A DNA stretch of 64,000 nucleotides from Magnetospirillum sp. (lineage in GTDB: Bacteria > Pseudomonadota > Alphaproteobacteria > CACIAM-22H2). The translations under genes and the position numbers were made by a program. The stretch spans positions 186,001-250,000 of the forward strand of contig JAPZUA010000002.1 of the NCBI GenBank assembly GCA_027532905.1, read 5' to 3'. Below are positions 49,842 through 56,670 of the stretch, in pieces. The notes beneath the pieces are model-generated. The model did not search any database, was not told where the DNA came from, and saw only the letters and a program-made list of their open reading frames with translations. Each line of letters opens with the position of its first letter. Position 1 is the first letter of the stretch.

Positions 49842-50741
49842 TTAGGGATTGCTGCCTGGAACAGTACCGGGCGGCAACGAAGCTGCGTGTTCGGCGATGG
49901 CGCCGGCTGTTGCGATCCAGATATCGGCCCGGTGCTTGGCGATATGCGCAAGTGCCCGGCGCAGATGGCGCAGGCGGTAGGGCTGGCCCACCAGATAGGG
50001 GTGCAAGGCGATCCCCATGACGAGCGGCATGGCCTTCGCCTGGGCCAGCATTTCGTCGAAATTGTCGATAATCATGTCAGCGAAGGCGTCGCCGCCGATT
50101 TTGCGCCCGACGATCATCGGTATGTCGTTGAGTTCCTGCGGGTAGGGCAGGGCCAAGATGCGGCCTTTGCGCGTACGCATCCACACCGGCTGGTCGTCCA
50201 TGCACCAATCGAGCAGATAGCGGTAGCCTGCCTCCTGCAGCAGGTCGGGCGTGTGCGGGCTTTCGCTGATCCAGGGGCCAAGCCAGCCTGCGGGCGATTT
50301 GCCCGTCTGGCGGGCGAGGATTTCGGTTGCCTCGGCGATCAGGGCCGCCTCGGCTTCCGGCGCCAATGTGCCTTGGCGTTCGGCATTGCTGCGCCCGTGG
50401 CCGACGATTTCGTCGCCGCGAGCTGCAAAAGCGCGCATCAAGTCGGGTGCGTAGTCGTACATCGTGCTGTTGGCGAGCACCGAACAGGGCAGCGACAATT
50501 CGTCGAAAAGTTCGCGCATGCGCCAGGCGCCGACCCTGTTGCCGTAGTCGCGCCAGGCGAAATTCAGGATATCCGGCTGCGGGCCGCCGGGAGCAAGCTC
50601 GGCCCCGAGCCCCTCGCCGAACGCAAAATGTTCGAGATTGAGACCGAGATAGACGGCAAGGCGCGTGCCGTTGGGCCAATCGTAGACCGGGCGGCCGACG
50701 ATGGGCTGGTAGTCGTAGCGCCCGTGTGTGGCGAGTTTCAT
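49842..50741 (-). CDS. Polysaccharide deacetylase-family protein (PuuE-like)
   Basis: This 299-residue protein belongs to the NodB-like carbohydrate esterase fold. It starts KLATHGRYDYQPIVGRPVYDWPNGTRLAVYLGLNLEHFAFGEG, and contains WRDYGNRVGAWRMRELFDEL, GDEIVGHGRSNAERQGTL and MGIALHPYLVGQPYRLRHL. This pattern (DWPNG..LAVY, EHF, DYGNRVG) is that of the cofactor-free allantoinase PuuE branch and of uncharacterised relatives, so the substrate may be a small amide and not a polysaccharide. The ATG at 50741 is supported by the conserved start. Confidence 0.83.
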   Translation of the reverse strand: MKLATHGRYDYQPIVGRPVYDWPNGTRLAVYLGLNLEHFAFGEGLGAELAPGGPQPDILNFAWRDYGNRVGAWRMRELFDELSLPCSVLANSTMYDYAPDLMRAFAARGDEIVGHGRSNAERQGTLAPEAEAALIAEATEILARQTGKSPAGWLGPWISESPHTPDLLQEAGYRYLLDWCMDDQPVWMRTRKGRILALPYPQELNDIPMIVGRKIGGDAFADMIIDNFDEMLAQAKAMPLVMGIALHPYLVGQPYRLRHLRRALAHIAKHRADIWIATAGAIAEHAASLPPGTVPGSNP

Positions 50742-50803: not shown

Positions 50804-50845
50804 AAAATGAAAAGGCCCCGACGCAGGGGGGGGTGCGTCGGGGCC
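50804..50845 (-). terminator. Intrinsic terminator with 12-base stem and eight-C loop
   Basis: The stem arms are 50834-50845 and 50814-50825, perfectly paired; the loop is eight C on the minus strand (50826-50833). The downstream sequence TTTTCATTTT (50813-50804) completes a Rho-independent terminator. It ends transcription from the gene at 50995-52014 or from the candidate small RNA. Confidence 0.75.
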
Positions 50846-50905
50846 GAAGGCTATCCGACCCAGGGGGGGGAGGGGCGGATACCAATGGCGAGCGGGGGGG
50901 TGCTC
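50804..50905 (-). ncRNA. Candidate small RNA with three C-run-capped hairpins
   Basis: On the minus strand, three hairpins follow one another, each presenting a run of 7-8 cytosines in the loop. They are GAGC/GCTC at 50890-50905, TATCCG/CGGATA at 50852-50881, and a perfect 12-base stem GGCCCCGACGCA/TGCGTCGGGGCC at 50814-50845 with an eight-C loop. The last is followed by TTTTCATTTT, a terminator. C-rich loops are typical of alphaproteobacterial small RNAs that pair with ribosome sites. Transcription start is not resolved. Alternatively, it is just the 3' untranslated end of the gene at 50995-52014. Confidence 0.5.
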
Positions 50906-50994
50906 AACCATGAGCTAGCAAATGGGGTCGGTCCTCGAAATCGCAAGAGGGAGCCGCAACAAATTTTGAAAAAAGATAGCTAATATACATAGAC

Positions 50995-52014
50995 TCAGTG
51001 TGATTCATAGATAGCCCAGCCAGGTGCGGCCGCATCGCTCGATAGCCGTTTGAGGTGTCGGGCAACGCCATAGAGGTCCCAGACGGCTTGGCATGCCTCG
51101 AAGCTCATTGAGCCGTCGCCTCCCCAAACCATGTAGTGGCTGCCGGCCGGCAGATGGCGCAATGCGGCGTCGACCCGCCGTGTCCAGAACGCGAGCGGCG
51201 TCTCCGGGGTTTGCGACAGCGGCTGCCAGCGATTGGCCATCAGCGAATGCACGAGCTGGTCGTCGATCGTATATTCGTCGAGACCGCGCGTCGGCGGATT
51301 GACGGCGGCGAAAAGCGGGGCATTGAACTTGATCCGGGGGGCGACGTCTTTCATGTCGGCGCAGAACAGTTTGGCCTTTGCCGGCCCGATCGCGTCGATG
51401 GCGGCGTTGAGATCGCGGACAAGCTGGCCGACCACCGCGGCCGGGCGGCGCGCGCGTGCCAGGTAAGGCCGCCAATCGGGATCGCGCAGCTTTTTGAGCT
51501 GGGCCGCATCGTGGCTGTAGAGGATCTCGAACCCGTCCTCGACCGAGCGCGCAAACCCGAGAGCCCAGCGCACGGCGAGATATTGCAGCCCGGCGCGTTC
51601 GGCAGCGGGGACCCGTGCGTGGTAGAGCCGGTCGAAGACGGCGCAAACCGGTTCGATCAGATAGTCGCAAGCGAAATGGAAAGTCGGCACGTGCGGGTGG
51701 AGGGCGGGACGCGCCGCCGCCAGCAGGGCTGCAACGCGGGCCGGATCGATCCGGCGCCCGCCGAACAGGAACTGCGCGGCCAGATGCGAGCGCGGCGCAA
51801 AATCGTTGACCGCCAAGCGGCGCACACCGCGTGCGGCAAACACCGTCGGCATCAGGCACGAGCCGGCCGTGAAATCGACCATGGCGAGGTCTTTCCACCG
51901 TGCTTGCGGCAATATGCGGGCATAGGCATCGACGATTTCGGGCACCCAATCGGCGATGGTGCCGTCGAGCGGCAGCATGGCGCGGCGCAGGATGGCGAGC
52001 GTTTTGGCGTTCAT
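50995..52014 (-). CDS. Unknown protein with DNA-methyltransferase-like motifs
   Basis: This 339-residue protein is not assigned to a named family. Near residues 46-80 it reads MVDFTAGSCLMPTVFAARGVRRLAVNDFAPRSHLAAQ, which resembles the SAM-binding motif of adenine methylases (DxFxGxG followed by a strand ending ND). Around residue 255, FAAVNPPTRGLDEYTIDDQ resembles the NPPY/DPPY catalytic motif, with threonine in place of tyrosine. A separate region FCADMKDVAPRIKF sits between. No target-recognition domain or restriction partner is evident. It overlaps the rhomboid gene by four bases. Confidence 0.7.
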   Translation of the reverse strand: MNAKTLAILRRAMLPLDGTIADWVPEIVDAYARILPQARWKDLAMVDFTAGSCLMPTVFAARGVRRLAVNDFAPRSHLAAQFLFGGRRIDPARVAALLAAARPALHPHVPTFHFACDYLIEPVCAVFDRLYHARVPAAERAGLQYLAVRWALGFARSVEDGFEILYSHDAAQLKKLRDPDWRPYLARARRPAAVVGQLVRDLNAAIDAIGPAKAKLFCADMKDVAPRIKFNAPLFAAVNPPTRGLDEYTIDDQLVHSLMANRWQPLSQTPETPLAFWTRRVDAALRHLPAGSHYMVWGGDGSMSFEACQAVWDLYGVARHLKRLSSDAAAPGWAIYESH

Positions 52015-55356: not shown

Positions 55357-55512
55357 AGAGTTGCCGAATGCGCTGATGCCTGCTTGCCACGAGTCCACAA
55401 AAGCCGCCGGTTTTTCGGGCAATGGTGGAAAGTGACAAAAAAACGGGCGAAGTATCAGAATCAATTATCCATATAACCCATTGATTCAAAACGACCGTTA
55501 AAAATTCGATAA

Positions 55513-55538
55513 GTTTTTCGGGGGGGGTGAAGAAAAAC
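55513..55538 (-). promoter_or_regulatory. Hairpin with eight-C loop in the acetyltransferase-hydrolase gap
   Basis: GTTTTTC (55513-55519) pairs with GAAAAAC (55532-55538). The loop holds eight G on the plus strand (55520-55527), i.e. eight C on the minus strand. It lies in a 240-base gap (55357-55596) that holds no gene. The gap also has a perfect 8-base inverted repeat GAATCAAT/ATTGATTC at about 55462-55491. The resemblance to the hairpins at 50804-50905 suggests a shared type of RNA element. Confidence 0.4.
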
Positions 55539-55596
55539 GACTCCCACCCGCCGACGGCCTATGTTATCCCCAAACCGACTGCAATAAACCGAAACA

Positions 55597-56670
55597 ATGA
55601 TTCCGGCGGATTGGCAAAAGATGATCGAACTTCTTGTTGCCGTGGCAGTGGCCTCGCAAAGCCCCGATATGGGCCAGCGGGCGGACTCGCAAACGACGTC
55701 GTTCGCGGTTTCCGCCGAGACCGCTGCCGAAAACATCGTTGTTCTCGACAGCAACTTCCTGCTCGATCCGTCGTTGCCGTTCGTCTTCCTGCCAAACGCG
55801 CCGACGGCGGCGCCTGCGGCATCTGCCGGTGCCACGACCGGCCCCGAAGACGATCTCGAATTGCTGGCCGCGCGCGAGGCCGACAGTGCGAACCAAGCAC
55901 CGCAATGGCAGAGCCGTCCCAAGGCGGCAACAAGCTTTGGGGCTGGCGCCAATCTGCGCAATGTGGCCGTCAATATCGCGCGCGCCAACACGCGCCTCAA
56001 GGTCGGCCAGCGCCAGATGACTCTCGAAATCTACCGCCCCGACACGGCCGGTGCACGGCCGGCGGTGCTGCTGCTGCACGGGGCCTCGGGCATGGGCAAC
56101 GGCGCTTTCTACCGGGGGGCCGCCGAAGCTTTCGCCGAAGCGGGCTACGTCGTTTATCTCCCGCACTATCTGGGCGACCGCAACCGCAACCGGCCGCGCG
56201 GCCGCGCTCTGATCGCCGAGTTCGAACAGCAGCACGACGCGGTGCGCGCGACGCTCGATGCGATGGCTAAGGATCCGCGCGTCGACGAGGCGCGCTTGGC
56301 GGCTTTCGGTTTCTCGCTGGGCGGGTTCCAGGCATTGGGCCTGTCGAGCCGCGATGCGCGTGTGGCCGCCGTCGTCAATATGGGCGGCGGCATGCCCGGC
56401 AACGTCGCGGGTACCACCACGCGTCTGGCGCCGACATTGGTCATCCACGGCCAACGCGACCGCACGGTCCCGGTTGCCCGCGCCCTCCAGACGCGCGACA
56501 TGCTGAAGCGCCTGTCGGTGCCGCACGAGATGGCGCTGTTTGCCGACCAGCAGCATTTCTTCCAAGGCGCGGCAAGCCGCACGGCCATCGAACGGTCGAT
56601 CGCGTTCTTCGATCGCCAGATGCGCCCGGCCGTCTCGATCGGCACGGCCGACCTTCTCCAGGGGCGTTAA
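55597..56670 (+). CDS. Dienelactone hydrolase-like alpha/beta hydrolase
   Basis: This 357-residue protein has a long N-terminal region (about 1-120) that is low in complexity (NAPTAAPAASAGATTGPEDD). The catalytic domain follows: RPAVLLLHGASGMGNGAFYRGAAEAFAEAGYVVYLPHYLG, the nucleophile elbow AAFGFSLGGFQALGLSS with serine, the acid in LVIHGQRDRTVPVARAL, and histidine in ADQQHFFQG. The start may be the second ATG at 55621, which would give a weak hydrophobic leader (IELLVAVAVASQS). The substrate is unknown; dienelactones are only one class for this fold. Confidence 0.82.
   Translation: MIPADWQKMIELLVAVAVASQSPDMGQRADSQTTSFAVSAETAAENIVVLDSNFLLDPSLPFVFLPNAPTAAPAASAGATTGPEDDLELLAAREADSANQAPQWQSRPKAATSFGAGANLRNVAVNIARANTRLKVGQRQMTLEIYRPDTAGARPAVLLLHGASGMGNGAFYRGAAEAFAEAGYVVYLPHYLGDRNRNRPRGRALIAEFEQQHDAVRATLDAMAKDPRVDEARLAAFGFSLGGFQALGLSSRDARVAAVVNMGGGMPGNVAGTTTRLAPTLVIHGQRDRTVPVARALQTRDMLKRLSVPHEMALFADQQHFFQGAASRTAIERSIAFFDRQMRPAVSIGTADLLQGR

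Follow-up and report, generated by a model that had tools for sequence, protein, structure and literature searches.

We report here a predicted trans-acting sRNA of about 105 nt (50807..50911, minus strand) in a 64,000-nt stretch of Magnetospirillum sp. DNA (contig JAPZUA010000002.1), which is called the window in the following. The RNA folds into three consecutive hairpins with pure C loops, and BLAST, synteny and a covariance model place an orthologue in 10 of the 11 genus genomes. Judged from sequence comparison, it is very probably a real regulatory RNA gene. We further consider it likely that this is a stand-alone gene with a promoter of its own, whose C loops would act as seeds for pairing with G runs in mRNAs.

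Fold and sequence of the three hairpins

The original prediction had named three successive minus-strand hairpins that all present a run of C in their loops, and both the sequence and the predicted fold bear this out, with loops of 7, 8 and 8 C. Hairpin 1 (50885..50911) reads AUGGUUGAGC-A-CCCCCCC-GCUCGCCAU and carries its C7 loop at 50894-50900. Hairpin 2 (50849..50883, GGUAUCCGCCC ... GGGUCGGAUAGCC) exposes a C8 loop at 50863-50870, and hairpin 3 (50810..50845, GGCCCCGACGCA-CCCCCCCC-UGCGUCGGGGCC-UUUU) another one at 50826-50833. The latter was also correctly recognised as a perfect intrinsic terminator: its 12-bp stem occupies 50814-50845 on the minus strand and is followed by the U tract. 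In the source genome, hairpins 1 and 2 each have a mismatch or bulge in the stem, with hairpin 2 being unbroken in most relatives. The three hairpins together occupy 50911-50814. For the minus-strand sequence from 50911 to 50810, the minimum free energy is -54 kcal/mol (z = -6.4), and none of 200 dinucleotide shuffles was equally stable. Each C run forms the apical loop of its own hairpin in the predicted fold, with a mean unpaired probability of 1.00 for all three. The length of approximately 105 nt follows from placing the RNA start near 50911, which is probably the 5' end.

Markov-shuffled sequences contain about six homopolymer C or G runs of at least 7 nt per 64 kb. The real window has four, three of which lie in the sRNA. 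A triple of such runs inside 110 nt occurred in none of 60 Markov-shuffled windows, and a lone stem of at least 8 bp with a C5 loop is unremarkable (0-4 per shuffled window). The weight of the evidence lies in the loop triple and its conservation, and not in any single C-loop hairpin.

Conservation across the genus and beyond

In 10 of the 11 genus genomes the sRNA is located behind the same 339-aa gene. BLAST matched it in four genomes besides the source genome, and five more copies, too diverged for BLAST, were reached via the upstream gene. The eleventh genome (G008, 86% complete) is without the sRNA and also without a match to the upstream gene. A three-hairpin covariance search, which had been put forward together with the prediction, was run and finds the model conserved throughout the genus: a model built on five of the sequences recovers the remaining five with E-values of 4e-10 or better, and a model from all ten yields one strong copy per genome. 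Among the counterparts of the locus are MAGs deposited under the names Tagaea sp. CACIAM 22H2, Telmatospirillum sp. and Azospirillum sp. At two loci (L029 and L032), another hairpin of similar, GGCCCCGGCGCC-type sequence comes after the sRNA terminator, perhaps a local duplication.

Among the ten orthologues, compensatory changes are found in 17 of the 32 base pairs (8 of 11 in hairpin 2), and standard pairs fill 93.7% of the alignment cells compared to 32-43% in a control with the partners slid; as the alignment was fitted to the covariance model, these counts lean towards the model. Several exchanges can be read directly from the sequences, e.g., GACC/GGUC to GAUC/GAUC in hairpin 2 and GACGC/GCGUC to GGCGC/GCGCC in hairpin 3, while the hairpin 1 stem AUGG.../...CCAU is exchanged for UGCUCG.../...CGAGCGCA in relatives. 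The stem of hairpin 3 is kept in all ten. A C run of at least 5 is retained in 28 of the 30 loops, with a length drifting from 5 to 11: hairpin 1 keeps at least 5 C and hairpin 2 at least 6 in nine of ten orthologues each, and hairpin 3 has its loop run in all ten. The exceptions are hairpin 2 of G006 and hairpin 1 of G007. In three genomes the C run of hairpin 3 abuts the stem and places four of five C inside the loop. Otherwise at most a single A interrupts the run, or U flanks it. Stems that turn over with compensation beneath such constant loops support the selection on the loops that had been proposed. The pattern of like loops on unrelated stems is a design already known from ar14, CcsR, sX13 and 6C. 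Taken together, the comparative evidence is strong that a stand-alone sRNA appears here under selection on stems and C loops alike.

One more hairpin of the window (55513..55538, minus strand), with an A/U stem and a C8 loop, had been listed as a similar element. The hairpin exists, but it is not a relative of the sRNA. Its C8 run at 55520-55527 is absent from the orthologous spacer in all eight relatives, two of which are 87-89% identical over the region, and it was therefore rejected as a second copy. This isolated C8 is a built-in control for the loop conservation of the sRNA. The spacer itself (55500-55600), ahead of a dienelactone-hydrolase-like gene, contains genus-conserved blocks such as GACTCCC and GTTATCC, which could be promoter or operator.

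Outside the genus, no such RNA was found behind the upstream-gene homologues of sister genera (L068-L071). Weak model matches at L047 and L050 were rejected, as all they have in common with the sRNA is a C6-loop terminator, and so were those at L054 and L055, which read as coding sequence. Five further weak matches (L049 and L051 from sister genera, L074, L075 and L076) resemble C-loop hairpin arrays of their own, for which we make no claim of homology. Such weak matches elsewhere suggest that the C-loop design is common in the class. The central 150 bases of L049 and L051, near LolA genes, are mutually alike and show several hairpins whose loops are rich in C, the terminator loop being C6 or C9. 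L074 (1480-1680, minus strand; genome G277 from another family of the class) comprises three hairpins with C9, C5 and C6 loops plus a terminator, and this RNA has no BLAST match in six relatives. In the central 200 bases of L073 (genome G057), what looks by eye like a small DUF1127-like protein is followed by hairpins with C-rich loops and a terminator, an arrangement like that of CcsR/CIN1. A literature search retrieved no paper on a C-loop sRNA of Rhodospirillales.

Promoter-like element and upstream gene

A promoter-like element that is conserved in the alignments precedes the RNA (50912..50947, minus strand). It comprises CTTG at 50947-50944, a spacing of about 17-18 nt and a -10-like hexamer. 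The CTTG, approximately 35 nt upstream of hairpin 1, is invariant in all ten genomes and keeps a nearly fixed distance, while the surrounding spacer diverges. The hexamer is of the TATNT type in divergent relatives and poor in the source genome; G006 and G007 read CTTG-N17/18-CCTATCT, and the other genomes are weaker. The CTTG element fits an alphaproteobacterial sigma70 promoter and also an RpoH promoter. A signature-based search for heat-shock genes, covering 0.86 Mb of the source genome and meant for a comparison with RpoH, found none, and inspection of the sRNA upstream sequences by eye revealed no EcfG-type GGAAC element. We infer that the RNA would be transcribed from its own CTTG-type promoter by housekeeping sigma70 or RpoH.

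The upstream gene (50995..52014, minus strand) codes for a protein of 339 aa without a Pfam or NCBIfam match and marks the sRNA locus as its syntenic anchor in each of the ten genomes. Its product is conserved family-wide (45-95% identity) and carries a strongly conserved DFTAGSCLMP ... VND motif. The sRNA begins 84 nt past the stop codon of this gene and always adjoins it. Such a position would also fit the 3' end of the upstream mRNA, i.e., an RNA processed from the 3' UTR or an elaborate terminator without a promoter of its own, and Rhodobacter offers a precedent in the CcsR RNAs, which are processed from an mRNA (PMC10253847). We regard this origin as unlikely. A bare terminator needs one hairpin only, yet hairpins 1 and 2 covary too, and a CTTG held invariant at near-constant distance amid a diverging spacer speaks against it as well. 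Even so, an RNA derived from the 3' UTR could still work through the same C loops.

Candidate targets and mode of action

By analogy, the stand-alone sRNA most likely acts like sX13, 6C, GsrN and ar14/CcsR, with loops that would pair with G runs near start codons. Each C loop may seed a kissing or pairing contact with stretches of five or six G that lie near the ribosome site or at the 5' end of several mRNAs. With its three loops, the RNA would carry three equivalent seeds, and their high G/C content may make a chaperone dispensable. Translation would be blocked where a loop pairs within the ribosome site, a repression as for sX13, while pairing elsewhere could stabilise or activate the mRNA, as for 6C and GsrN.

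Duplex energies of the C8 loop range from -15 to -19 kcal/mol with G runs, compared to -5.9 kcal/mol with a canonical GGAGG ribosome site; for the CCUCCUCCC loop, pairing with the canonical site is stronger (-10.0 kcal/mol). Because the C8 loop favours G runs over GGAGG, the targets to be expected are genes with five or six G near the start. The original prediction had proposed pairing with G-rich ribosome sites. Its G-rich part is retained as the best-supported mechanism, in analogy with sX13, 6C and GsrN, but the canonical GGAGG site is not favoured at the above energy.

In the source genome (G000), six G occur 2-14 nt before an ATG 110 times and in the mirror arrangement 70 times. Of 30 cases inspected in detail, about a dozen resemble true gene starts, including two substrate-binding proteins, and substrate-binding-protein genes with five or six G in their ribosome sites would be candidate targets. 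At the ribosome site of a peptide-binding-protein gene (leader sequence GGGGGGUUCGGGAAAUG), the G run measures 6, 6, 5 and 5 nt in the source genome and the three closest orthologues, and the most distant one has GGAGG. Five or six G are present in four of the five orthologues, for a gene that was picked for carrying six. The G-run sites at the candidate genes are no more than compatible with targeting by the sRNA, since the genes were chosen for their G6 and ribosome sites are G-rich in any case.

A bolder proposal is that the RNA is a lineage-wide regulator of genes using ribosome sites with five or six G, or that it acts as a sponge of some C-binding protein, and that its target logic differs from the anti-Shine-Dalgarno logic of the CCUCCUCCC RNAs of other alphaproteobacteria. 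We put this forward tentatively, as possible but rather doubtful. As to the sponge alone, Rho and cold-shock proteins favour pyrimidine- or C-rich single strands, and C loops that bind such a protein would turn the RNA into a decoy for it. The original prediction had also suggested a C-run-binding protein, but nothing in favour of one was found. Constrained loops of 7-8 nt are short for Rho, and the characterised C-loop sRNAs cited here work by base pairing. We consider protein binding very unlikely.

Pairing in trans, which we prefer, also has to be set against a role in cis. The downstream gene (49842..50741, minus strand), polysaccharide-deacetylase/PuuE-like, begins 66 nt downstream of the sRNA in the source genome and follows it in G002, G003 and G004 as well, as would be expected if the sRNA were its 5' leader, either attenuator or riboswitch. 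This is highly improbable and largely ruled out by synteny, since the gene is adjacent to the sRNA in a part of the genus only. The sRNA is kept where the deacetylase gene is not nearby (G005, G009 and G010) or more than 1 kb away (G006 and G007), and its last hairpin is an unconditional terminator for which no anti-terminator partner is visible. A small peptide has practically no chance: the ATG at the predicted 5' end (50911) opens a 57-aa ORF, but this frame is not kept, because C-run lengths drift by non-multiples of three among the orthologues and the ATG is GTG in G010.

Comparison with known C-loop sRNAs

At its curated cut-offs, Rfam gives no match for the window copy. In permissive mode, ar14 ranks best, followed by 6C and then by CcsR1 and sX13. 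The match to ar14 (RF02344) is a full-length covariance match with 42.4 bits (E = 4e-7) for the window copy and 44.9 bits for the best orthologue, so neither the former nor any of the orthologues reaches the gathering cut-off of 58.8 bits. Like our sRNA, ar14 exhibits three hairpins with a C-rich loop on each, the last one being the terminator. By the shared loop motif, we take RF02344 to be the SmelA075/A099 sRNA group of Rhizobiales (PMC3927594). The CCUCCUCCC RNAs of that group presumably use exposed C-containing loops as seeds (PMC3927594). The CCUCCUCCC motif in the loops of these Rhizobiales sRNAs is absent from our sRNA. Its loops are pure C runs instead, and the fit to the canonical anti-Shine-Dalgarno function is therefore lost.

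The sRNA sX13 of Xanthomonas is a 115-nt, Hfq-independent RNA with three stable stems and three apical C-rich loops that acts on mRNAs with G runs (PMC3771888). The three-stem layout and the C-rich apical loops are shared, but sX13 is gammaproteobacterial and has loops of 4-5 C, whereas our sRNA is alphaproteobacterial and has loops of 7-8 C. With the sX13 model (RF02232), the window copy scores 22.1 and the best orthologue 37.5, both below the cut-off of 50. The 6C/B11 RNA of actinobacteria (RF01066) is likewise a tandem of stem-loops presenting at least six C, but has two hairpins instead of three and belongs to another phylum. According to PMC8628891 and the work cited there, the C loops of 6C serve multiple targets. 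The window copy reaches 39.6 with this model, hairpins 2-3 of one orthologue (L002) 47.5, which exceeds the cut-off of 47, and two other orthologues 41.3 and 45.7.

Closer in taxonomic terms, the CcsR1-4/CIN1 locus of Rhodobacter (RF02791) is alphaproteobacterial, has C-rich loops and is transcribed from an RpoHI/RpoHII promoter, and the CTTG promoter of our sRNA could be RpoH-like. The CcsR units, however, comprise two hairpins each with CCUCCUCCC, in four copies that are processed from a DUF1127 mRNA, an arrangement lacking at the sRNA locus. No DUF1127 gene lies beside the sRNA, its upstream neighbour being the gene without Pfam match and its downstream neighbour the deacetylase gene. GsrN of Caulobacter, also alphaproteobacterial and about 106 nt long, exposes a C6 loop for G-rich mRNA, which pairs with the katG leader as shown by compensatory mutation (PMC5869019). 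In contrast to the three C loops found here, GsrN has a single one; it has an EcfG promoter and usually lies beside the stress-response locus (phyR/nepR/ecfG). At our locus, no EcfG-type site was seen upstream by eye, and the genes identified beside the sRNA are not stress-response regulators.

Since all matched families are C-loop sRNAs, the likeness to ar14, 6C, CcsR1 and sX13 is one of shared design rather than a claim of descent. As the sRNA stays below the ar14 score and lacks the ar14 motif, the DUF1127 neighbour and the EcfG setting, it is placed outside the ar14, CcsR and GsrN families, as a lineage-specific C-loop RNA of a kind that is itself already known. It is a clean, strongly covarying addition to the scattered set of sX13, 6C, GsrN, ar14 and CcsR, and comes from a Rhodospirillales-related lineage whose C-loop RNA had no earlier catalogue entry. 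From a biological point of view, its pure C loops and the CCUCCUCCC loops form a natural contrast for asking in what way the sequence of a loop decides whether G runs or Shine-Dalgarno sites are targeted.
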